Positions 92 to 10,675 of a stretch of 10,675 bases of DNA are shown piece after piece; position 1 is the first letter of the stretch; each line of letters opens with the position of its first letter. The notes beneath the pieces were generated by a model. That model had not been told where the DNA came from. It did not search any database and saw only the letters and a list, made by a program, of their open reading frames with translations. Source of the stretch: Sphingomonas sp. IW22 (lineage in GTDB: Bacteria; Pseudomonadota; Alphaproteobacteria; Sphingomonadales; Sphingomonadaceae); assembly GCF_041321155.1 (NCBI RefSeq), contig NZ_JBGGWB010000014.1, positions 1 to 10,675 of the forward strand, written 5' to 3'. Both the position numbers and the translations under genes were made by a program.

Positions 92-1465
92 TTAGGCCGC
101 AAGTGGGCTGTCTTGATCACCATCTTCGGGTTCGGCCAGCACACGCTGTTCAGCCACCGAGAAAAACTCTTTCTCCATCTCGACCCCGATGCTCATGCGA
201 CCGGCACGATGCGCAGCAACGCAGGTGCTTCCACTTCCCATGAAGCTGTCGAACACAACGTCGCCTTCGTTGGAGTAGGTGCGGATCAGATACTCCAGCA
301 AGGCGAGCGGCTTCTGAAACGGATGCACACCGTTCTTGTCTTTCGGGCAGAACACGGTGGTCCGAGGGTTATTGGTGGTTCCCTCGTATTTCCGGCCGGG
401 ATTATGAGTAACGTTGTCTAGATGCGGCGAATGCGTCGAGCCGCTTACGGTTTGAATGCCCGTCGAACGTTGCCCAAGCGCATGATAGGTATAGCGGCGG
501 GGGGAGCGATTCTTATGAATCGTTGTGCCAGCACTAAAGACGAGAATGTCTTCGTGCTGCTTCAAGGGCCGGTTGCGCGCATGAAGTGATGCGGTAGCTC
601 GGTTCTTGATCCAGACAATGTCATGCTTGAAGAGGTCAATCCCTTCGCAGACCAGCTTGGACGAGAAAGGCTGGGAGCCGAAAAGGATGATCGTGCCGGT
701 CGGCTTGATGATGCGGCGATACTCCGCCCACATTGCCTTCAGATCAATCGTAGGGTCGATTGCGAGGCCCGTGGTCGCATAGGGCGGATCGGCGAGGATG
801 AGATCGACCGAGCCATCCGGCATGGACTTCATGATTTCGAAGCAGTCCCCCCGATGCAGCACGGGCGTGAACTTCTCGGTGGGAGCCGGGGCATCGGCCA
901 CACGCTGCCGCACGTCCGTGATCGCGTCGGGCGGCATTGCCCCGCGAGAACGCGCGGGGCGAGTGCCGCCGGTAGTGGCTTCGGAGACCATCGCGTCGTC
1001 GGGCCGGTGCTTGGAACGAGGCGAACGGAGCCGCCAGCGAACAGGAGCATCGGCAGCCTCGATCAGGTCGGGAAGCTCGGCCTCCAACTTGGCGAGACGC
1101 TTGTAGACCGTGCCGTAAGCAACCCACCGTCCCTTGGAGGCCATCTCGGCACGGATAGCATGCGCGCTCCGCCATTCGGTGCAGAGGGCGTCGAGGAAAA
1201 GATCATCAGGGATAGCAGTGCGAATCGGCGTGGTGCTGCCACGAGGCGGCGTGCTGGGATGCTCCACAACCTCGACGCTGATCGCGTCCGCGTCATTCGC
1301 CGCCTCGGGAAGGTTCGCGGCGGGTTGGTTGACCAGCGCCCGCAGCCCGTCAAAAAGGCGCTGATACTGGCTTTCAGCCGAAGTGGCGCGGTCATTGGCG
1401 GCATCAAGTTGCGCAGTGATAGCTGCGCCAAGCTGGGTGAGGATATCATGGATGGGTTGGGTCAT
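92..1465 (-). CDS. Beta-class DNA (adenine/cytosine-N4) methyltransferase with N-terminal winged-helix-like region
   Basis: This 457-aa S-adenosylmethionine-dependent DNA amino-methyltransferase probably makes N6-methyladenine or N4-methylcytosine. The catalytic DPPY is at residues 226-229 and precedes the SAM-binding FMGSGST at 408-414, the motif order of the beta class. HPFQKP (381-386) matches the family HPxQKP motif just before the SAM motif. Residues 1-60 look helical. Residues 85-150 (DDLFLDALC through YKRLAKLEAE to VRWRLR) resemble a winged-helix DNA-binding module, and 150-198 is a low-complexity Arg/Pro linker. The ATG is preceded by GAGGTG (1475-1470). The gene reads outward, is divergent from the 201-aa gene, and ends inside the left TIR (DQDSPLAA plus stop). 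No restriction gene is beside it, and the Type ISP enzyme has its own methyltransferase, so this looks like an accessory or orphan modifier. Its target sequence cannot be read from the protein. Confidence 0.92.
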   Translation of the reverse strand: MTQPIHDILTQLGAAITAQLDAANDRATSAESQYQRLFDGLRALVNQPAANLPEAANDADAISVEVVEHPSTPPRGSTTPIRTAIPDDLFLDALCTEWRSAHAIRAEMASKGRWVAYGTVYKRLAKLEAELPDLIEAADAPVRWRLRSPRSKHRPDDAMVSEATTGGTRPARSRGAMPPDAITDVRQRVADAPAPTEKFTPVLHRGDCFEIMKSMPDGSVDLILADPPYATTGLAIDPTIDLKAMWAEYRRIIKPTGTIILFGSQPFSSKLVCEGIDLFKHDIVWIKNRATASLHARNRPLKQHEDILVFSAGTTIHKNRSPRRYTYHALGQRSTGIQTVSGSTHSPHLDNVTHNPGRKYEGTTNNPRTTVFCPKDKNGVHPFQKPLALLEYLIRTYSNEGDVVFDSFMGSGSTCVAAHRAGRMSIGVEMEKEFFSVAEQRVLAEPEDGDQDSPLAA

Positions 1466-2675: not shown

Positions 2676-4679
2676 TCAGTCAATCCCCAGCTTATGAAAG
2701 AATACTTTGTTGCGCATCTCGGCGTCGTGTAGAAGTTTATCCCAGCTAATAACCTCAATGTAGAGGTGAATATTCTTTCTCCAGTCGAACCAACCCATCG
2801 CGTCAGCCATGGGCGTGAAGTTCTGCTCAAACTCAAGCCACTCATTGACTTTTGGCGTGAGGTCGCAGACGATGTAGCCGTAGAAGGGAGTAGTGGCACT
2901 GACGCGGATTTCCCGCCCTTTGCTGTTCCTCACCTTACCGTTTCGGATCAGATTTACATAGCGAACTATCTGATTGACCGGGTCTTCCTTGGAAGACGGG
3001 TTTACGAAGTCGTCCCGCTGCGGTTTTTTAAACTCGAAAATCGTGACTGGATTACTGGGCTCGTTCTCGGCGCGAAATACGACGGGGCGGTTGAAGACCG
3101 TCACGTCCGTGCGATCTAAACTCGATGCCTCTGTCGGCTTATCGGAGATCACGTAAGAGGCGAAGTTGAGCCGCTCGTCCAGCATCCAGAGATTGTGGTC
3201 GTTGTAATCGAGACCATCGGAGTCCGCTCGTCTGGGGAAAATAATGTCGTGGACTTCTCCCTCCGATCGATACTTTCCATCTGGGCCAAGCTCAAGCGCT
3301 TTACCAAATAAATCTAGCACACAACGTCTCATCGAGACATAATGTATTAGATCGCTTTTGCTTGTTTCGGAAATACTAGCAATAACACTATTGATCTGAT
3401 CACCTAAATCGTCGCCTTCATCTGCATTTAGGATTGCGGAAACCCGGGTTCTTGTCGAAACTTCACGCTCATATTTCTTCTTCTGAAGAAATATTTCGAT
3501 CTCCTGATGGGAAGGGGTCATCGGCAGGCCGCTAAAATCGACCTCTTTGCTCAAAACGCGATGCCATGGGGCTTGCGTTTCCACATACTCCGCAATCCGC
3601 GCGCCTTTTCGCAGACGCCGCTCGGAAATCTCCGCTCCAACGGCCGACTGCGCTATCTCTGCGGCGCGCTGTTCGATCTGCGTCTGTGAGATGCCGTTCA
3701 GCAAGTCCGAGTCAGATTGGAAACGAAACTCACCGCGCTCCAACGACACGTTCTCGTTGAGATAATCGCCAAAGACATACGCCTTGATTACGAAGTTGCG
3801 CCCTTTCGCGTCGCCCTGATCTGGCGAAGGCTCAAAAAACTCCTCGGCAAACTCGGGTATGTATGTTTGCAGAGGGTTTTCGGTGACTTCACGGCGGTGT
3901 GCCACCAGCGCCACTTTGCTTTTGCTCGCCCTAGGAGCGAAGAACTTGAATACCCTCACATGGAACGTGCGATCGCCATCGGTCGAGGGGAAACTGAAGG
4001 TTGGATTTTCGACTGCAAGCTCAACGATTTGCGTATTTTCGCGAGCAAGGTAATCGTTGAGCGCGATGGGCGTCGTCGAGCGATGGTCCCGGATAACGAT
4101 GCGCGGACAAACACGCTCCTTGTCTACGAAATAGGGCAACAGGCGTTCGACCACGACCCTGCTGATCACGTCCAAGCCCTTATCCGGGAACTTGACGGAT
4201 TTTATGCCCGAAATCTCAACCTCTGATCCCGTATCAGTAGCATCGGAAGCAGCGACCTTTTCATCGACGACGATTTCGTTGCCGAGCCCCATCCGAAAGG
4301 AGCGGTCGAAGAACGAACCGTCTTCAGCGAAAGTGCTCTTGACCTTGACGCGCTCGAAATACTTCAAGCAGGTGAACCGCCCAAAACCCTTACCCCCGTC
4401 AGCAGCTTTCAGATCGGTGTAGAGCGTATCAAACGCATCCCGATTGCGCTTGGTGAAGCCAACACCGTTATCCTTCACCACAAACCCATCGACCTCTTCG
4501 AGCCGGTCGGTGAGGTCTGGTTGGCCGTTGCGAAGCACGTCGATTTCGACCAAGCCGTCCCCGGCTCCCCTCTGCTCGACCGCTTGGATGCCATTTACCA
4601 CCAGTTCGACCAGTGGCGTGTAGCTGTTCGTTCCCGACCGGATGTTCTCAACGAGTCGCTTGATATTAACGTTGCTCAT
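2676..4679 (-). CDS. MORC/MutL-like GHKL ATPase with C-terminal PD-(D/E)XK-like nuclease domain
   Basis: The N-terminal third of this 667-aa protein is a GHKL (gyrase, Hsp90, histidine kinase, MutL) ATPase. Its N-box is ELVVN (catalytic E25, metal ligand N29), motif G1 is DNGVGF (70-75) and the ATP lid is GGKGFGR (95-101). Residues 140-330 fit the S5-like transducer that follows GHKL in MutL and MORC proteins, and about 331-480 is mostly helical. The C-terminus reads D525 ... E549-F-K551 within strand-like segments (RTDVTVF, TIFEFKKP), as in PD-(D/E)XK nucleases, followed by a helix (DPVNQIVRYV). MORC-like GHKL ATPases in bacterial restriction operons are known from comparative genomics. The ATG overlaps the Type ISP stop (ATGA), so translation is coupled and the two proteins are probably made in fixed proportion. 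Codons 400-460 are AT-rich compared with the rest. The nuclease assignment is less certain than the ATPase. Confidence 0.85.
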   Translation of the reverse strand: MSNVNIKRLVENIRSGTNSYTPLVELVVNGIQAVEQRGAGDGLVEIDVLRNGQPDLTDRLEEVDGFVVKDNGVGFTKRNRDAFDTLYTDLKAADGGKGFGRFTCLKYFERVKVKSTFAEDGSFFDRSFRMGLGNEIVVDEKVAASDATDTGSEVEISGIKSVKFPDKGLDVISRVVVERLLPYFVDKERVCPRIVIRDHRSTTPIALNDYLARENTQIVELAVENPTFSFPSTDGDRTFHVRVFKFFAPRASKSKVALVAHRREVTENPLQTYIPEFAEEFFEPSPDQGDAKGRNFVIKAYVFGDYLNENVSLERGEFRFQSDSDLLNGISQTQIEQRAAEIAQSAVGAEISERRLRKGARIAEYVETQAPWHRVLSKEVDFSGLPMTPSHQEIEIFLQKKKYEREVSTRTRVSAILNADEGDDLGDQINSVIASISETSKSDLIHYVSMRRCVLDLFGKALELGPDGKYRSEGEVHDIIFPRRADSDGLDYNDHNLWMLDERLNFASYVISDKPTEASSLDRTDVTVFNRPVVFRAENEPSNPVTIFEFKKPQRDDFVNPSSKEDPVNQIVRYVNLIRNGKVRNSKGREIRVSATTPFYGYIVCDLTPKVNEWLEFEQNFTPMADAMGWFDWRKNIHLYIEVISWDKLLHDAEMRNKVFFHKLGID

Positions 4680-7600
4680 GCAAGATCACCAAGGGGCGGC
4701 AGCGAGCGAACGATCTTCATTGTCTCCAAGCTGACGGTGATCACCCGCTGGAAAAGTAGCAACGGATAGGCCGGATCGCCCACCGTCTCGGTGGCATAGC
4801 GGTTGGCGTCGTTCACGATGCCGCTGGCCTTGTCGGTCTTTACGCACTGCCGTTCCATCACCCATTCCAACGCGGGCTTGCCACTTACCACATACTCATA
4901 GGCGTCGAGCGGTATGCCAGTCATGGTAATGTGGGCGTTGTAAACCACCGTTGTCTTGTCGAGCTTCGGGCGCTTACCCGCGAATCGCATCTGCTCAACC
5001 CGATAAAAGCTCTGGGGATCGTCGATGTTCGCGAGGCGCAGATCGCCCTGCGCAATGGATACGGGATACGGATCAACGCCCTCGTAGCCGACGTGAAGGT
5101 CGGCCAGCTTCCGACCAGCTTCCGCAAAAGCGCGAAAGTTCTCGATTCCCTTCACGGCCGGGATGCGGGGCAACTCCTTTGCAAGGTTGTCCGCGTAGCT
5201 CTCCCGATAGGAGGGCGAGTGGAGCACGGCGTAGATGTAGTAGAAGAGGTCGTCCTCGATAATCTCGCTTCCCGGGTATGCCGCTTGGAAGTGACCGAGC
5301 CCTTGAACCGATATCCCGCTGCGTTGCCCGACCGCCTTGAGATCGAGTCCTCCGGCTTCACGTCCGGGAGGATCGTAGACGATCAATGGGAAGCATTGCG
5401 CTCCACCCATATCGCCAAAGTGAATGCTCGGTGTCAGGTCAGTCATCAACACCGAGAACTCGCCACGAAAACCGGGCGCGGAGAGCGAGATCACGCGGTT
5501 CTCGGAGTCGGGTTTCGGGAAATACCTGTCGGTGAGATACTTGCTCCAGTTCAGGCGTCCATCCATGTAGAGCCACTGTCGAGTAAAGGGCCGATAATGC
5601 GCCAGTCGGAGCTTGGACTCTTCAAACGTATACTTCTTTCCCGATGACAGATCGGCCAGCGTTTTCTGACACCATTTGAATGAGGCTTCATCGCCACGGG
5701 GGGTGTAGGCTTGGTCCAACGAGTTGAAGAACGAAATGGACTTCTGCATGCGGGACGCAAGACCAGCCTTTGAGCTATCGTAGCACCACAAGTCTCGATT
5801 GGTTTTCATTCCAGCCGAGTAGGTGGGAAACAGTCCCGCCCCGGTCTTATCGCTGTCAGGCATCGGGACGAACTGCTCGAAGCCAAGCTCGCCCTGATTG
5901 AGCCAGTTTCCGCTCTGATCCGGTTCGATGGTCTGCCAGCCATCAGCCTCCGCGATGCCGGAGATGCTGCCAAATCGCGCAACAATCCCGAGCTTCTCCT
6001 CGCGCGAGAGATAATCTCCAATATCGTGGAAATGTATTTGACCGCTCTTCTTGGTGGAAGGGTTCTTCACCAGTAAGGAGATAGCGACTGGGGTGCGAGA
6101 GCCCAATCCGAATACGTTGTCTTTCTCTCGACGACGGCGTTCTCCTGCCGTTCTGGCATTACCCCGCAGGTGAAACACATAGATGTTTGCGAACTCGTCA
6201 GCCAAGCACTTGCGCAGACCATCAGTAGCGTTTCCATCCACCCAACTTCCGTTGCTCACGTAGGCGATCACACCGCTGTCTCCGATGCGATCGCTCGCCC
6301 AGCGGATCGCGCGAATGTAGCTGTCGTAGAGCGACCGCTTGTTCGTCATGCGGGTTTCGGCCGCATACGTCTCGCGAATGCGCCCATCGAGTTTTGGGTA
6401 AACGACGTTGGCGGCATCGTCGTTGGCGCTGCCTTGCCCGACCGAATAGGGCGGGTTGCCCATGATGACCCGGATGTCGAGCGACTTCTGGCGCGTGCGG
6501 CGGCTGCTGTTATCCGCCATGAGGTCGCTGATGAGGTCGCGATCCTGCTCATAAAGCTGGAAGGTGTCGGTGAGACAGATGCCCTCGAACGGCTTGTAAT
6601 CCCCGCCCGACATCGTGTGATAGACGGCCTCGATATTGATGGCGGCAATGTAGTAGGCGAGTAGCACGATCTCGTTGGCATGGATTTCGTGCTGGTATTT
6701 GTGGGCGAGTTCGTCCGGCGCGATCAGTCCAGACTGGAGCAGGCGCGTGATGAAGGTGCCGGTGCCGGTGAACGGATCGAGGATGTGGACGCCCTTGCTG
6801 CCGAGCGTCTGACCGAACTCCGACTTGAGCACCTCATTCACCGAGTGGATGATAAAATCGACCACCTCGACCGGCGTATAGACGATGCCGAGCCGCTCGG
6901 TCATTCGGGGAAAGGCGTTGCGGAAGAACTTGTCGTAGAGTTCGACGACGATCTTCTGCTTGCCCGCCGCGTTGTCGATCCCGGCAGCGCGCACGCGCAC
7001 GCTGGCGTAGAAGCGCTCAAGTGACTCGGCTTCCTTGCCGAGGTTCTGCTCGTCGAGCGCGGTGAGAACCTCCTCCATCGCGACCGAGACGGGGTTGTTC
7101 TTGGTGAAGCTGTAGCCCTCGAACAGCGCCTCGAAGACCGGGCGCGTGATCAGATGCTGGGCCAGCATCTCGATCGCGTCGTTCTCGCTGATGCTCTCGT
7201 TCAGGTCGTCCCTGATTTCGGCAAGGAAGCGCTCGAACGCCGCGCGCTCGGTCGATCCCGGCTGCTGCACGATGGCGGTGATACGGGTGATATGGTTCTG
7301 GGCAATCTTGGCGATATCGCCTGCCCAGTCTTCCCAATAGTCGCGCCTTCCACACTTCTTGACGATCTTGGCGCGGATCGCGGTGGTGAACTCGTCGAGC
7401 GTGAAGGCAAGCTGGTCCTCACCGCCTGTGGGCTCGCTGCTGCCATCGCGGTCGCCACTATCGGTCGATCCGCCACCCTGACCGATGCCGATGCCGCCAG
7501 CCTTCTTTTTCGCCTTTGTCGGCAGCTTGTCGGAAACCGCGATCACCTCGATCTGGCCGCTGACATCGACGCCCAAATCCATCTTGTTGATGGTGGCATC

Positions 7601-9502
7601 GAAGCGCTCGTCGTGCGCGCGAAGCGCATTGAGAATCTGCCAGACGACTTTGTATTTCTCGTTGTTGTTAAGCGCCTCCTCGGGCGCGACTCCTGCGGGG
7701 ATACCGACCGGCAGGATGACGTAGCCCATTTTTTTACCGGGAGCGCGGCGCATGACGCGACCGACCGACTGGACCACATCAATCTGCGACTTGCGAGGAT
7801 GCAGGAACATGATCGCGTCGAGCGCGGGCACGTCCACACCTTCCGACAGGCAGCGCGCGTTCGACAGGATGCGGCAGCTATGATCCTCATGCTCGGCCTT
7901 CAGCCATTCGAGTTCACGGGTGCGCGTTTTCGCATTGAAGGTGCCATCGACGTGGTGGACCTCGCAGCCGAGGGGCGGCTCCTCGTCACCGCTGGCGGCT
8001 GACGTGAGATATTCCTCTACGACGGCAGAGAACTCGTCACGCACCAGCTTGGAGGAAGCAATGTCCTTACAGAAGGCGAGCGCACGGCGCATATGCCCGG
8101 TGTCGGTCGCCACGTCGGCGGCGAGATCGGCCTTGGTGAGGGCCTTGTAGCATCCGACGATCTTGGTCGCGTCGTCGAGCTTGAGGGCGTTGTCCTCGTC
8201 CTTGAGGCGGTTTTGGATCGAGGTGCTGACCATCGCCTCATCGACGGCGAGGACGATCACCTTGTAGTCGGTGAGAAGGTCATTCTGGACCGCCCATCCA
8301 AAGCCGCGCTGGAATAGTGTCTCGCCATAGAGCGCTGGGTCGTCCATCGAGCATAGCTCGGCGGAAACCTCCTTCGCCTTCGACCGCACGGCGTCACCGA
8401 AGATGCGCGGCGTCGCGGTCATGTAGAGGCGTTTCTTGCCCGCGATGAAATCCTGATTGTGGATGCGAACGAAGTTGCTCTCGTCCTCACCTTCCAGCGT
8501 CGCGCCGGTCGTGCGGTGCGCCTCGTCGCAGATGATGAGATCGAACTCGGGGAAGCCGTGCTGCTTCTGGGCGTTCGAAATCACCTGAATCGACTGGTAG
8601 GTGCTGAAGACCACCGTCATCTCGTCCGGGGCGGATGCCTTCGCCTTGTTGGCGAGCTTCGCCGGATCGGTGGTGGCGGGGTGCGCGAGATCGTGAACGT
8701 CGATATCACCGATATCGTCGTTGCCCTTGTTGCGCTTGCCCACCTGCGCGTCCGAGCAGACCGCGAAGGCCCGGAGCGGCGTGGTGGTGTCGAGCGACCA
8801 CTCCCGCACCGTCTGGCTCATGAGGGCGAGCGATGGCACGAGGAACAGCACAAACTTGCCGGGACCGGCGAGGTCTTCGGCGATCTTGAGGCCGGTGAAC
8901 GTTTTGCCGGTGCCGCAGGCCATGATGAGCTTGCCGCGATCCGCTTCCGACAGCCCCTCGCGCACCGCCTCCAGCGCCTCGCGCTGATGCTGGCGCACCT
9001 CCTTCTTGGGCGCGAGGACGATCTGGTCGTCGGCCAGATAGGTGCGCCAGTCGATCGGGCTCTGTTCGAGCCGCTCCATGCTGATCCGGGTGGTCGAGAT
9101 ATTCTGGCCGTCGAGGGCGTCTTCGGCGTTCTTGCTCCACGCCACCTCGGTCGTGTCGATGATTAGGCGGCGGGTGAACGGGGCTTTGCCCGACGCGGTG
9201 AAGAACGAGTCGATATCGGATTTCTGGATGTGGTGGTCGGCGCGATAGAACTTGCACTGGACCGCGCAGAAGCCGCCATCGTCGCGCAGCTTCGCCACAA
9301 GGTCGATGCCTGTGTCGGTCTGCTTCCACCCAGCGGCTTCAGCCCACTCGCGGAAGGTCCACGCATCCTCATATTGCTGCGCCATCTCGGGGTCATGCTT
9401 CAGGAACTCGACGCACAAACGCTCGAAATACGTGCCCTTCTCGCGCTCGGACTTGGCACCCGAGCGATAGCGTTCCAGCAGATCACGAATAGCAGAAGAC
9501 AC
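4676..9502 (-). CDS. Type ISP single-polypeptide restriction-modification enzyme (nuclease-helicase-methyltransferase-TRD)
   Basis: This 1608-aa chain matches the size and order of the LlaGI/LlaBIII Type ISP enzymes (about 1.6 kaa). An Mrr-like nuclease lies at 1-150, with GIDLVA (D67) and QCK (Q82, K84). A superfamily 2 helicase/translocase lies at about 165-600: Walker A ACGTGKT (195-201), DEAH (326-329), MTATPR (361-366) and motif VI VVQSVGRVMRR (576-586). A Lys then Gly/Ser-rich linker spans 663-696 and a helical coupler follows. A gamma-type N6-adenine methyltransferase has YTP (875-877), DPFTGTGTF (909-917) and NPPY (1016-1019). A target-recognition part runs from about 1150 to 1608, with YIYAVLHSP (1422-1430). 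Family enzymes methylate one strand and cut after ATP-driven translocation between head-to-head sites. All catalytic motifs are intact. The GTG start is supported by the promoter 25 nt upstream and by the N-terminal RYRSGAKSEREKG stretch. The stop overlaps the ATPase start. Confidence 0.93.
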   Translation of the reverse strand: MSSAIRDLLERYRSGAKSEREKGTYFERLCVEFLKHDPEMAQQYEDAWTFREWAEAAGWKQTDTGIDLVAKLRDDGGFCAVQCKFYRADHHIQKSDIDSFFTASGKAPFTRRLIIDTTEVAWSKNAEDALDGQNISTTRISMERLEQSPIDWRTYLADDQIVLAPKKEVRQHQREALEAVREGLSEADRGKLIMACGTGKTFTGLKIAEDLAGPGKFVLFLVPSLALMSQTVREWSLDTTTPLRAFAVCSDAQVGKRNKGNDDIGDIDVHDLAHPATTDPAKLANKAKASAPDEMTVVFSTYQSIQVISNAQKQHGFPEFDLIICDEAHRTTGATLEGEDESNFVRIHNQDFIAGKKRLYMTATPRIFGDAVRSKAKEVSAELCSMDDPALYGETLFQRGFGWAVQNDLLTDYKVIVLAVDEAMVSTSIQNRLKDEDNALKLDDATKIVGCYKALTKADLAADVATDTGHMRRALAFCKDIASSKLVRDEFSAVVEEYLTSAASGDEEPPLGCEVHHVDGTFNAKTRTRELEWLKAEHEDHSCRILSNARCLSEGVDVPALDAIMFLHPRKSQIDVVQSVGRVMRRAPGKKMGYVILPVGIPAGVAPEEALNNNEKYKVVWQILNALRAHDERFDATINKMDLGVDVSGQIEVIAVSDKLPTKAKKKAGGIGIGQGGGSTDSGDRDGSSEPTGGEDQLAFTLDEFTTAIRAKIVKKCGRRDYWEDWAGDIAKIAQNHITRITAIVQQPGSTERAAFERFLAEIRDDLNESISENDAIEMLAQHLITRPVFEALFEGYSFTKNNPVSVAMEEVLTALDEQNLGKEAESLERFYASVRVRAAGIDNAAGKQKIVVELYDKFFRNAFPRMTERLGIVYTPVEVVDFIIHSVNEVLKSEFGQTLGSKGVHILDPFTGTGTFITRLLQSGLIAPDELAHKYQHEIHANEIVLLAYYIAAINIEAVYHTMSGGDYKPFEGICLTDTFQLYEQDRDLISDLMADNSSRRTRQKSLDIRVIMGNPPYSVGQGSANDDAANVVYPKLDGRIRETYAAETRMTNKRSLYDSYIRAIRWASDRIGDSGVIAYVSNGSWVDGNATDGLRKCLADEFANIYVFHLRGNARTAGERRRREKDNVFGLGSRTPVAISLLVKNPSTKKSGQIHFHDIGDYLSREEKLGIVARFGSISGIAEADGWQTIEPDQSGNWLNQGELGFEQFVPMPDSDKTGAGLFPTYSAGMKTNRDLWCYDSSKAGLASRMQKSISFFNSLDQAYTPRGDEASFKWCQKTLADLSSGKKYTFEESKLRLAHYRPFTRQWLYMDGRLNWSKYLTDRYFPKPDSENRVISLSAPGFRGEFSVLMTDLTPSIHFGDMGGAQCFPLIVYDPPGREAGGLDLKAVGQRSGISVQGLGHFQAAYPGSEIIEDDLFYYIYAVLHSPSYRESYADNLAKELPRIPAVKGIENFRAFAEAGRKLADLHVGYEGVDPYPVSIAQGDLRLANIDDPQSFYRVEQMRFAGKRPKLDKTTVVYNAHITMTGIPLDAYEYVVSGKPALEWVMERQCVKTDKASGIVNDANRYATETVGDPAYPLLLFQRVITVSLETMKIVRSLPPLGDLA

Positions 9503-9533
9503 AGAAAACCCCGCCCCAACAACCCTATGACGG

Positions 9534-9562
9534 GTGATAGCGAAAGAGCAGCGCGCTGTCAG
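9534..9562 (-). promoter_or_regulatory. Sigma70-like promoter of the Type ISP operon
   Basis: On the minus strand CTGACA (9562-9557) is followed after exactly 17 bases by TATCAC (9539-9534), matching the -35 and -10 consensus at 5/6 and 4/6 positions. Transcription would start near 9527, leaving a leader of about 25 bases before the GTG at 9502. This supports that GTG as the start and suggests the operon can be transcribed apart from the upstream small genes. Confidence 0.55.
9549..9558. promoter_or_regulatory. Perfect palindrome CAGCGCGCTG inside the promoter spacer
   Basis: This 10-bp perfect dyad sits between the proposed -35 and -10 boxes and overlaps two bases of the -35. A repressor bound here would exclude RNA polymerase, a common arrangement for restriction-gene control. 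The binding protein is unknown; candidates in the window are the RHH protein and the 201-aa HTH protein. Confidence 0.4.
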
Positions 9563-9590
9563 CGACGATGAGAAAAGCCGCTCCGGTTAT

Positions 9591-9601
9591 CCCCGCTGGG
9601 G
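9591..9601. other. Short hairpin CCCC-GCT-GGGG
   Basis: This 4-bp G-C stem with a three-base loop lies 18 bp past the stop of the 64-aa ORF and about 30 bp upstream of the Type ISP promoter. It could end transcription from the upstream genes, although no T run follows on the minus strand. It may have no function. Confidence 0.25.
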
Positions 9602-9618
9602 GCAGTGATAGGACCGAG

Positions 9619-9813
9619 CTAGAACTCCGGTGAGCCGAGCCGCTTCAAAACGCGGCCCCGCACCTCCGCCTCTGCCGCCATCTGCGCCAACCGTTGTTCT
9701 GCCAGCGCCCATCGAAACGAACGGGTAGCTGGATCGGTAGCGCGCGCAGGGTCGCGGGGGCTCATCAGCTTGAAAAGTGAAAGGCTGCCCTCGTCGTCAC
9801 AATAGTCGTCCAT
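9619..9813 (-). CDS. Small hypothetical protein, 64 aa
   Basis: I do not recognise this protein. It has an acidic start (MDDYCDDEG), a basic middle, and a long charged helix in the second half (FRWALAEQRLAQMAAEAEVRGRVLKRLG) that could be amphipathic or coiled. It has no membrane segment. The start has no Shine-Dalgarno site and sits just after an AT-rich TAAATATT, and no good promoter was found, so it may depend on read-through from the RHH gene 60 bp upstream. It lies in the same direction as the restriction operon. The ORF could be spurious, but nothing else explains this stretch and its composition is protein-like. Confidence 0.45.
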   Translation of the reverse strand: MDDYCDDEGSLSLFKLMSPRDPARATDPATRSFRWALAEQRLAQMAAEAEVRGRVLKRLGSPEF

Positions 9814-9873
9814 TCAATATTTAGGCGCAGCCAGAAGGCTTTTCGGGCCTACATCGGCACGGCTGACACGACA

Positions 9874-10086
9874 CTACTCGTTGCCAGACAGGTTCTCACG
9901 AGCCTCGTTCTCACGGCGATCAAGAGCTTCTTCGAGAAGGAGGCGAATGAAATCACCCTGCCTCATTGTGCCGCGCAAAGCGTCAATGCGCGCTTTCGTG
10001 CCTTCGCGGGCACGCAGATGGATCGCTTCGTCGAATATCTTGGGCTTGGTCACATAAGCACGAATAGCGGTATCGCTTTCTTTCAT
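9874..10086 (-). CDS. Ribbon-helix-helix (CopG/antitoxin-like) DNA-binding regulator
   Basis: This 70-aa protein fits the ribbon-helix-helix plan: a strand at about 20-26 (EAIHLRA), helix A at 29-38 (GTKARIDALRG) with the usual Arg/Leu spacing, a turn, and helix B at 43-57 (QGDFIRLLLEEALDR) with the FIRxxLEEAL signature of CopG-like proteins. Such proteins bind operators as dimers and often repress their own genes. The ATG has GAGGG (10095-10091) four bases upstream. The promoter region holds three AACCGAT repeats (10099-10149), a likely autoregulatory operator shared with the divergent membrane-protein gene. RHH proteins also act as antitoxins or relaxosome accessory factors, but no toxin or relaxase is recognised here. 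The operator link is inferred. Confidence 0.75.
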   Translation of the reverse strand: MKESDTAIRAYVTKPKIFDEAIHLRAREGTKARIDALRGTMRQGDFIRLLLEEALDRRENEARENLSGNE

Positions 10087-10098
10087 CCAGCCCTCACG

Positions 10099-10149
10099 AA
10101 CCGATCTCGTTTGACGTTTAACCGATACCGGTTATCTTAACCGATACCG
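10099..10149. promoter_or_regulatory. Three phased AACCGAT repeats (operator)
   Basis: AACCGATCTCG (10099-10109, degenerate), AACCGATACCG (10120-10130) and AACCGATACCG (10139-10149) start 21 and 19 bases apart, close to two helical turns. The two exact copies extend to a 13-base TTAACCGATACCG. Each exact copy is itself nearly palindromic: AACCG-ATAC-CGGTT at 10120-10133 and TTAACCGATACCGCTTAA at 10137-10154. The array covers both divergent promoters, as expected for cooperative binding by a small dimeric regulator such as the neighbouring RHH protein. Confidence 0.65.
10111..10138 (+). promoter_or_regulatory. Candidate promoter of the membrane-protein gene
   Basis: TTGACG (10111-10116), a 16-base spacer and TATCTT (10133-10138) match the consensus at five and four of six positions. 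Its -10 box overlaps that of the opposing promoter almost base for base, so the two would compete for polymerase. Another exact AACCGATACCG repeat fills its spacer. The leader before the ATG at 10227 is about 80 bases. Confidence 0.4.
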
Positions 10150-10161
10150 CTTAACAAGCAA
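10134..10161 (-). promoter_or_regulatory. Candidate promoter of the RHH gene
   Basis: On the minus strand TTGCTT (10161-10156), a 16-base spacer and TAAGAT (10139-10134) match four of six bases in each box. Transcription would begin near 10127, about 40 bases before the ATG. One AACCGATACCG repeat fills the spacer, so occupancy would block this promoter. Confidence 0.4.
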
Positions 10162-10226
10162 GGCTCGACGACGCTGACAGGCGCGGTCGCGTCATGGCTT
10201 GGAGCCACCGGTCAAAGGGGGAAATG

Positions 10227-10559
10227 ATGGACGAGAAAACGAGGCGCTTTATCGAGCAAGCCGAATGGCATCGGATGCGCGCCAACGAAGACAGAGTCAG
10301 GTTTAAAGCAGGGCAGGAATCTGAAGCTCAACGCGCACACGACAAACGAGTGGCCTATGTCCTGAAATACGGACGTGACGGAGCAGTGGCACGCACGATT
10401 AAGAAGTGGGCCGTTGGATTCTTTGCCGTGGCGGTGCTCTCATTCCCAGATATGTTGAAAGATGAAGGCGCAGTCCATGCGTTTTCAATGGCGATCTTTC
10501 TACCGCTGCTCGGGTTTGGCATCGGGTGCTATCGGGCTTCCCGACTTCCTCGGGTGTGA
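10227..10559 (+). CDS. Small two-helix membrane protein, unknown function
   Basis: This 110-aa protein has a charged, helical N-terminal half (TRRFIEQAEWHRMR, then RVRFKAGQ) likely to face the cytoplasm. Two hydrophobic segments follow, at about 61-77 (WAVGFFAVAVLSFP) and 82-101 (AVHAFSMAIFLPLLGFGIG), and a basic tail (RASRLPRV). The ATG at 10227 is chosen because GGGGG (10217-10221) lies five bases before it. ATGs at 10194 and 10224 are in frame but lack a placed ribosome site. The gene is divergent from the RHH regulator and shares its operator region, and it stops at the first bases of the right TIR. Small membrane proteins next to defence genes are sometimes effectors, but nothing in the sequence proves that role. 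Confidence 0.7.
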   Translation: MDEKTRRFIEQAEWHRMRANEDRVRFKAGQESEAQRAHDKRVAYVLKYGRDGAVARTIKKWAVGFFAVAVLSFPDMLKDEGAVHAFSMAIFLPLLGFGIGCYRASRLPRV

Positions 10560-10675
10560 TCAAGACAGCCCACTTGCGGCCTAACCCTATTCACCCGTCC
10601 ATCATGTGGAGGCCGAGCTATCGCTCGCCCTGCTCGTTGTCAGTTTGGTCGCAGTCGCTCCCAACCTGACCGAGC
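10556..10675. repeat. Right terminal inverted repeat (120 bp)
   Basis: This is a perfect inverted copy of bases 1-120. The TGA stop of the small membrane-protein gene (10557-10559) falls within its first four bases. The reading frame that encodes the methyltransferase tail in the left copy is not the frame entered by the right-hand gene, so the two terminal proteins do not share a C-terminus. Confidence 0.98.
10632..10675. repeat. Terminal hairpin dyad in right TIR
   Basis: This is the mirror image of the dyad at 1-44, with the same 16 pairs and GACT/AGTC loop, at the extreme right end. It lies about 70 bp past the stop of the small membrane-protein gene. Confidence 0.6.

Follow-up and report, generated by a model that had tools for sequence, protein, structure and literature searches.

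Type ISP restriction enzymes such as LlaGI and LlaBIII are described as single-polypeptide systems (PMC4872093). What, then, is the role of a second gene that begins on the stop codon of such an enzyme, and does its product act as a partner of the enzyme? The locus that raises this question lies on a complete contig of 10,675 bases, one of 43 contigs in the assembly, and this whole stretch is referred to here as the window. The features assigned to the window are as follows.

4676..9502, minus strand: Type ISP restriction-modification (RM) enzyme (ISP), 1608 aa, GTG start (ORF, Pfam, LlaBIII 4xqk, motifs)
9029..9400, minus strand: ISP Mrr-type nuclease domain, residues 35-158, with QCK and K84 (PF13156, E 3.2e-43)
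7745..9004, minus strand: ISP SF2 helicase-like motor, residues 167-586 (PF04851, PF00271, motifs)
6965..7339, minus strand: ISP coupler domain, residues 722-846 (PF22240, E 6.6e-52)
6425..6955, minus strand: ISP N6-adenine methyltransferase domain, Pfam match over residues 850-1026 (PF02384; DPFTGTG, NPPY)
4781..5833, minus strand: Type ISP C-terminal specificity domain, residues 1224-1574 (PF18135, E 6.3e-99)
5003..6502, minus strand: ISP segment exchanged relative to Sphingobium soli L005, residues about 1001-1500 (identity 33-34% at 1201-1400)
4679..4705, minus strand: final 9 ISP codons, SLPPLGDLA (tail comparison between loci)
4676..4679, minus strand: ATGA overlap of the ISP stop TGA and the GHKL start ATG (junction reading, 4 nt)
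2676..4679, minus strand: 667-aa GHKL ATPase-nuclease, ATG start, paraMORC3-type and Shedu-like (ORF, motifs, structure and profile matches)
3609..4679, minus strand: GHKL and S5 ATPase module, residues 1-357 (matches of the model to GHKL+S5 structures)
2679..3362, minus strand: C-terminal nuclease region, residues 440-667, with E473, D525 and E549-x-K551 (motifs, profile; fold partly of low confidence)

The overlapping gene pair and its counterpart in Sphingobium soli

Pfam places Mrr_cat_2, ResIII, Helicase_C, ISP_coupler, N6_Mtase and Type_ISP_C in the expected order along the ISP, whose motifs are QCK with K84, GTGKT at 197, DEAH at 326, DPFTGTG at 909 and NPPY at 1016. The chain contains the domain set of a single-chain Type ISP enzyme (Mrr nuclease, SF2 motor, coupler, methyltransferase and C-terminal target-recognition domain, TRD), and its closest solved structure is that of LlaBIII (4xqk), aligned over residues 18-1603, an enzyme known for ATP-driven translocation and collision cleavage (PMC7049714). 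The first-pass annotation had read two open reading frames joined by ATGA, and both are found as described, at 9502-4676 and 4679-2676 on the minus strand, together with all the residues that it cited (E25, K84 and K551). The co-production that it proposed for the two proteins is supported by the 4-nt ATGA seen in the sequence, from which coupling of their translation would be expected. An Rfam search of the window gave no match, and promoter and terminator scans of the window did no better than shuffles.

Comparison of the GHKL gene with that of S. soli gave a dS of 0.198 and a dN/dS of 0.033, the proteins being 98.5% identical, and the gene is therefore under strong purifying selection. Along the ISP, residues 1-900 showed pS values of 0.10-0.29 and 97-100% identity, and residues 1001-1400 showed pS values of 0.74-0.93, with identity down to 33-34% at 1201-1400. 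This pattern indicates that the methyltransferase-TRD part of the ISP has been exchanged between the window and S. soli, an exchange that the GHKL gene did not follow. As the GHKL protein stayed the same despite this exchange, it is probably independent of the target sequence.

Several further features of the window were recorded. A separate 457-aa N4/N6 DNA methyltransferase (92-1465, minus strand) has a pS of about 0.6 against S. soli in its C-terminal part and of 0.15-0.18 in its N-terminal part, resembling the ISP pattern; its counterpart in S. soli continues into an ORF of 723 aa, in which a further stretch resembling a methyltransferase is found. Two small ORFs upstream of the ISP (9619-9813 and 9874-10086, both minus strand), 89 and 94% conserved in S. 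soli and lacking a Pfam match, are possible regulators. The contig ends form a perfect 120-bp inverted repeat (1-120 and 10556-10675), found nowhere else in the assembly and absent from the S. soli locus, which may represent an assembly boundary or the end of a real element.

Family assignment of the 667-aa protein

Sequence libraries said little about the 667-aa protein. Pfam returned only sub-threshold HATPase_c (E 0.0038) and HATPase_c_3 (E 0.06) matches, NCBIfam and PADLOC had none at E <= 1, and no PADLOC model matched the GHKL protein in the four members scanned (window, L010, L022 and L018). A PDB sequence search with the protein or its alignment as query found no relevant relative. A scan for its own family gave 1622 relatives at E <= 0.001 (7999 candidates scored), and the ATPase residues E25, N29, D70, G72, G74, G98, G100 and R101 as well as the nuclease residues E473, D525, E549, K551 and Q570 are identical in all 32 aligned members. 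In a structure search, residues 1-357 of the model aligned with SMCHD1, Hsp90, MORC2, Topo VI-B and MutL; the N-terminal half of the model filled the match lists, and the nuclease fold was modelled with partly low confidence. No Shedu structure appears among the matches listed, which does not count against a Shedu-like fold. The named viral matches listed were mostly RIIA-like and topoisomerase GHKL proteins.

The protein had been called MORC-like, a label that holds for the fold, given the matches to GHKL+S5 structures, and fails for the family. MORC proper was considered and rejected: the S5 motif GhXhhpXXRhl, a pattern taken from the published MORC-specific motif, is absent from 32 of 32 members. 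A better description is provided by paraMORC3, for which GHKL, S5 and a C-terminal E-D-ExK domain in the absence of the MORC-specific motif are the published marks (PMC2292703). The window protein has an N-terminal GHKL domain with conserved ATP motifs; an S5 domain follows it, as indicated by the match of residues 1-357 to GHKL+S5 structures; the E-D-ExK tail is represented by the invariant residues (32/32) and by a profile match to SduA_C; and the MORC-specific pattern occurs in none of the 32. The 667-aa protein carries these marks and is, by the description of that group, a putative paraMORC3.

For the profile match, 13 nuclease tails were compared with eight SduA_C domains, giving a probability of 93.6 (E 2e-7). 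The control comparison, with ISP Mrr domains instead, gave a probability of 0.2, and comparison with one single Shedu sequence gave 1.9. When the window protein and 10 family members were scanned with PF14082 (SduA_C/DUF4263), no match reached E <= 1, and the GHKL tail matches the Shedu nuclease at the profile level only. The architecture of GHKL plus nuclease was tied to Shedu type I-D in 2025 (PMC12137116). As paraMORC3 proteins are published (PMC2292703) and the related VcSduA is a stand-alone system (PMC12137116), the partner gene at this locus is of a known kind.

Shedu genes proper were also encountered. The genome of the window has a gene with a direct SduA_C match elsewhere (G000:C4:29970-30464, L116). 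On a Vibrio fluvialis plasmid (L107, 4571-7965), an SduA_C Shedu gene adjoins a distant GHKL-nuclease homologue with a 4-nt overlap; this homologue (30-33% identity) terminates a Type I RM operon of the order hsdR-AAA-hsdM-hsdS-Shedu and has E27 and K556 at the equivalent catalytic positions.

Partners and mobility of the GHKL gene

Matches to the GHKL protein were found at 26 loci in the genome scan, in one viral record, in 55 plasmid records and in one phage. The gene is rare in whole-genome samples. At E <= 1e-20, seven out of 385 genomes from the class and seven out of 398 from the phylum had a match, counting the genome of the window, and several of these matches are distant. The count was 6 of 199 relatives at E <= 1e-50 (again including the own genome), the other matches being partial or about 30-35% identical, and 1 of 284 genomes of another class at E <= 1e-60, which is the centre genome itself. 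For neighbourhood counts we used a set of 29 close relatives with 49% identity or more. L009 (protein identical to that of L008), L088-L090 (same contigs as L008, L020 and L027), the fragments L028-L030, L093 and L100 and the frame-broken L092 (GHKL copy at 8508-10503) were dropped before counting.

For 16 of the 29, an RM operon contains or adjoins the gene, and the operons are of four kinds. Representatives were scanned by Pfam and the remaining operon genes assigned via similarity clusters. The ISP stands directly upstream in three (window, S. soli L005 and the Aliivibrio MAG L018), Type I HsdM/HsdS genes are the partners in L011, L024, L019, L022 and L026 (Pfam), IIG/Eco57I-like genes in L015 and L084 (Pfam) and L025 (PADLOC), and a trio of MmeI-like methyltransferase, DEAD helicase and GIY-YIG protein in L007, L008, L010, L012 and L013 (Pfam). 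Contig ends truncate the partner genes in L018 and L025; in L018, 211 C-terminal residues of the ISP remain, and no further part of it was found in that Aliivibrio MAG. An unknown 451-aa gene separates GHKL from the Type I partner in L019, and the HsdS-position gene of L024 lacks a Pfam match and seems frame-broken. L006, from Erythrobacter, adjoins an ISP remnant and has the trio further upstream. No RM gene was recognised beside the remaining 12 (the neighbours of L004, L027 and L091 fall outside the Pfam scan), and the catalytic residues are intact in these loci as well. Ten of the 29 genes overlap the ORF upstream of them by 4 nt; that ORF encodes the ISP in three cases, GIY-YIG in four, HsdS in one and IIG in two.

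Some of these neighbourhoods have features of their own. The last 24 codons of the L024 HsdS-position gene (6690-8004) are in another frame. In Pseudoalteromonas L022 and Colwellia L026 (7110-13244), GHKL precedes hsdM and hsdS and stands behind a related gene, the L022 copy of which has a WYL domain. The trio (L007-L013, L109-L113) resembles a separate RM-like system; 219 plasmid records contain a match to its GIY-YIG protein, with the helicase next to it in all five that were opened. The IMG/VR viral contig L004 carries a complete close relative (8001-9998, 52%) with no recognised RM neighbour.

The pair proposed by the first-pass annotation does extend beyond the window, to S. soli, to the Aliivibrio MAG and, as a remnant, to Erythrobacter L006. 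A dedicated partnership with the ISP is not borne out: within the class GHKL accompanies 1 of 30 ISP loci, other RM partners or none are found elsewhere, and the exchange of the ISP target-recognition region beside a GHKL protein that stayed 98.5% identical leaves it unsupported. Of the 385 genomes sampled from the class, 36 contain Type_ISP_C, and at the 30 loci surveyed (up to 1.5 kb beyond the match) the GHKL gene was present only at the window's own. Four plasmid ISPs, with 72, 62, 62 and 58% identity to that of the window, have different genes next to them, and a comparison by eye of the 60 plasmid records listed for the ISP (of 188) with the 55 for GHKL showed no record in common. Conversely, a Type_ISP_C match is absent from 13 of 17 genomes or records with the cassette (one of them a plasmid record only); in L005 and L018 the match is the paired copy, and in L012 and L027 it is unlinked. 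The ISP-GHKL pairing is facultative. The tree separates L018 from the Sphingobium pair, and the starred branches force at least two changes of the ISP label by a quick method; clustering of that label did not exceed shuffles (65 of 500 were as low). Partners switch within clades, and partner kind is not fixed by clade.

DNA comparison shows what is carried over when partners switch. The Type I locus L024 and the trio locus L008 share one same-strand match at E <= 1e-10 (7990-10008, 87.7%), which consists of the GHKL gene with 11 bp before and 4 bp after it. L011 and L007 share a similar one-gene match (87.2%), and the shared DNA begins 26 bp before GHKL in L006/L005 and 24 bp before it in L082/L010. 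Between loci with different partners, the common DNA is thus the GHKL gene with an 11-26 bp leader; L010 and L008, which both have the trio, have most of the operon in common.

The Erythrobacter locus suggests how such junctions arose. Ahead of its intact GHKL gene stands an ORF of 38 codons, in which a stretch matching ISP residues 1-27 is followed by three further residues and then by SLPQLGDL, the eight codons of an ISP end. In a tblastn search of 24 upstream regions with an 80-residue N-terminal piece of the ISP, this was the sole N-terminal match (E 1.8e-5); the same search with the whole ISP gave E 0.005, and searching the L006 region alone gave 1.2e-4. No other Type_ISP_C match was found in the Erythrobacter genome. 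Several ISPs terminate in IV..LPxL, and GIY-YIG proteins carry tails at the same offset of -26: ALPPLGDLT in L007, MPPVPGDLA in L008, ALPPSGDLA in L010 and AQPPLGKLT in L013. Such a tail is absent from the GIY-YIG proteins of L006 and of five plasmids without an adjacent GHKL. When the tails were scored, those of L006, L007, L010 and L013 exceeded every other plus-strand position of their locus, L008 (P 0.0067) and L082 (P 0.016) were weaker, and L012 showed nothing (0.59). At other offsets L027, L084, L024 and L011 reach P 0.016-0.041, so that L082 and L008 are weak when taken alone.

Judging from these junctions, ISP-GHKL was probably the older arrangement in this alphaproteobacterial clade, with the ISP later deleted or exchanged, and deletions would have brought the cassette, together with the final codons of the ISP, next to new partners. 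Because such tails could also stem from a ribosome-binding leader carried over with the gene, the direction of this change depends mainly on L006. The ISP tail might instead serve as a docking peptide, although the tail is present in L006 and, weakly, in L082 without an intact partner, and some copies contain a Shine-Dalgarno-like GGGAG, which a carried-over leader explains as well.

Role in defence and comparison with known systems

We consider it moderately probable that the 667-aa protein is a self-contained paraMORC3-type, Shedu-like nuclease, a second defence layer that moves as a one-gene cassette and ends RM operons, often by codon overlap. The locus is best read as carrying a cassette embedded in RM operons at the level of translation, and not a subunit of the ISP. 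This assessment follows from the paraMORC3 marks together with the SduA_C profile match (93.6 versus 0.2 for the control); from VcSduA, a relative by architecture and a tested member of Shedu type I-D, which restricts phage alone (PMC12137116); from the TRD exchange that left GHKL unchanged; and from Erythrobacter, which keeps GHKL behind a mere remnant of the ISP. That the cassette is a single gene follows from L024 and L008, which share nothing beyond it and its 11-bp and 4-bp flanks. Against this assessment stand the lack of a direct Pfam SduA_C match and the ISP pairing, which arose or survived in two branches. With 16 of 29 copies near RM genes and 10 of 29 overlapped, more than life in a defence island needs, a functional link with restriction is likely.

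In operation, the ISP would read an unmethylated site, translocate and cut on collision, as expected from its family and domains. The codon overlap would hold the production of both proteins in step. In the co-made protein, a GHKL+S5 ATPase, probably dimeric, would gate the C-terminal PD-(D/E)xK nuclease, close on foreign DNA using ATP and allow the DNA to be cut without reading the ISP sequence.

The first-pass annotation had envisaged a compound system, and a two-stage version of it, in which GHKL is triggered by RM products (ends, nicks or stalled translocases), extends the damage and acts only after its partner, is a possible though doubtful alternative. It would account for the recurrent codon overlap with four RM kinds that share only DNA products or motors and for the independence of GHKL from target sequence, and some Shedu N-terminal domains are reported to sense free DNA ends (PMC12409362). 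Yet 12 of the 29 relatives keep all catalytic residues without an RM neighbour, VcSduA acts alone (PMC12137116), and most ISPs examined lack the GHKL gene. We favour independent action over action on restriction products because of these catalytically intact solitary copies and because the cassette also occurs in genomes without an ISP match.

The place of the gene as the last one in several kinds of RM operon would also suit a guard that restrains the RM enzyme, or that kills the cell or clears DNA upon RM inhibition or loss, and defence genes embedded in other immune systems are a published theme (preprint title cited by PMC12137116). The nuclease site is conserved in 32 of 32 members, however, and loci without RM genes exist, which makes such a guard quite improbable. 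Slightly less credible still is the idea that the genes are chance neighbours in a defence island and their overlap a by-product of insertion without functional meaning; the pair is rare and patchy and the cassette readily moves, but a 4-nt overlap recurs in 10 of 29 loci with different partners, the pair is kept between the window and S. soli at a dS of about 0.2 with a GHKL dN/dS of 0.033, and ISP pairing is found in two branches.

The overlap and the varied partners, since relatives of the gene are likewise attached to Type I, IIG and MmeI/helicase/GIY-YIG systems, suggest that single-chain restriction machines such as those of Type ISP can carry an exchangeable second effector. It is tempting, if speculative, to regard paraMORC3/Shedu-like nucleases as a general plug-in effector, one ATP-gated nuclease that senses what differing restriction enzymes share (ends, nicks, stalled motors) and is passed on as a one-gene cassette; ISP-GHKL would then be an older compound two-stage form, its break-up recorded in the ISP end-codons before the cassette and its later partners. 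The loci offer natural controls (paired, exchanged, ISP-deleted and standalone), with which the idea put forward in 2008, that MORC/paraMORC ATPases cooperate with restriction systems, can be tested directly. In the open-licence full text covered, we found no account of a Type ISP and GHKL/MORC pairing, of one gene exchanged among four RM kinds, or of ISP remnants.

The individual parts have precedents. Like LlaGI and LlaBIII, the window ISP carries all its domains in one chain; unlike them, it has a second gene overlapping its stop codon. GHKL-nuclease proteins beside RM genes were predicted in 2008, and paraMORC3 (Iyer, Abhiman and Aravind 2008, PMC2292703) is described from RM neighbourhoods or standalone, as here. 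The text of that paper names no Type ISP (0 occurrences), and the one-gene cassette exchange and ISP remnants seen here are not described in the sections of it consulted. Experimental tests of a protein with this architecture followed in 2025 (PMC12137116). By its published description, VcSduA shares the GHKL plus PD-(D/E)xK architecture, with E27/K557 reported as its catalytic positions against E25/K551 in the window protein. It differs in being reported as a stand-alone gene, whereas the gene of the window protein shares codons with an RM gene and its product, in contrast to Shedu, has no direct SduA_C Pfam match.
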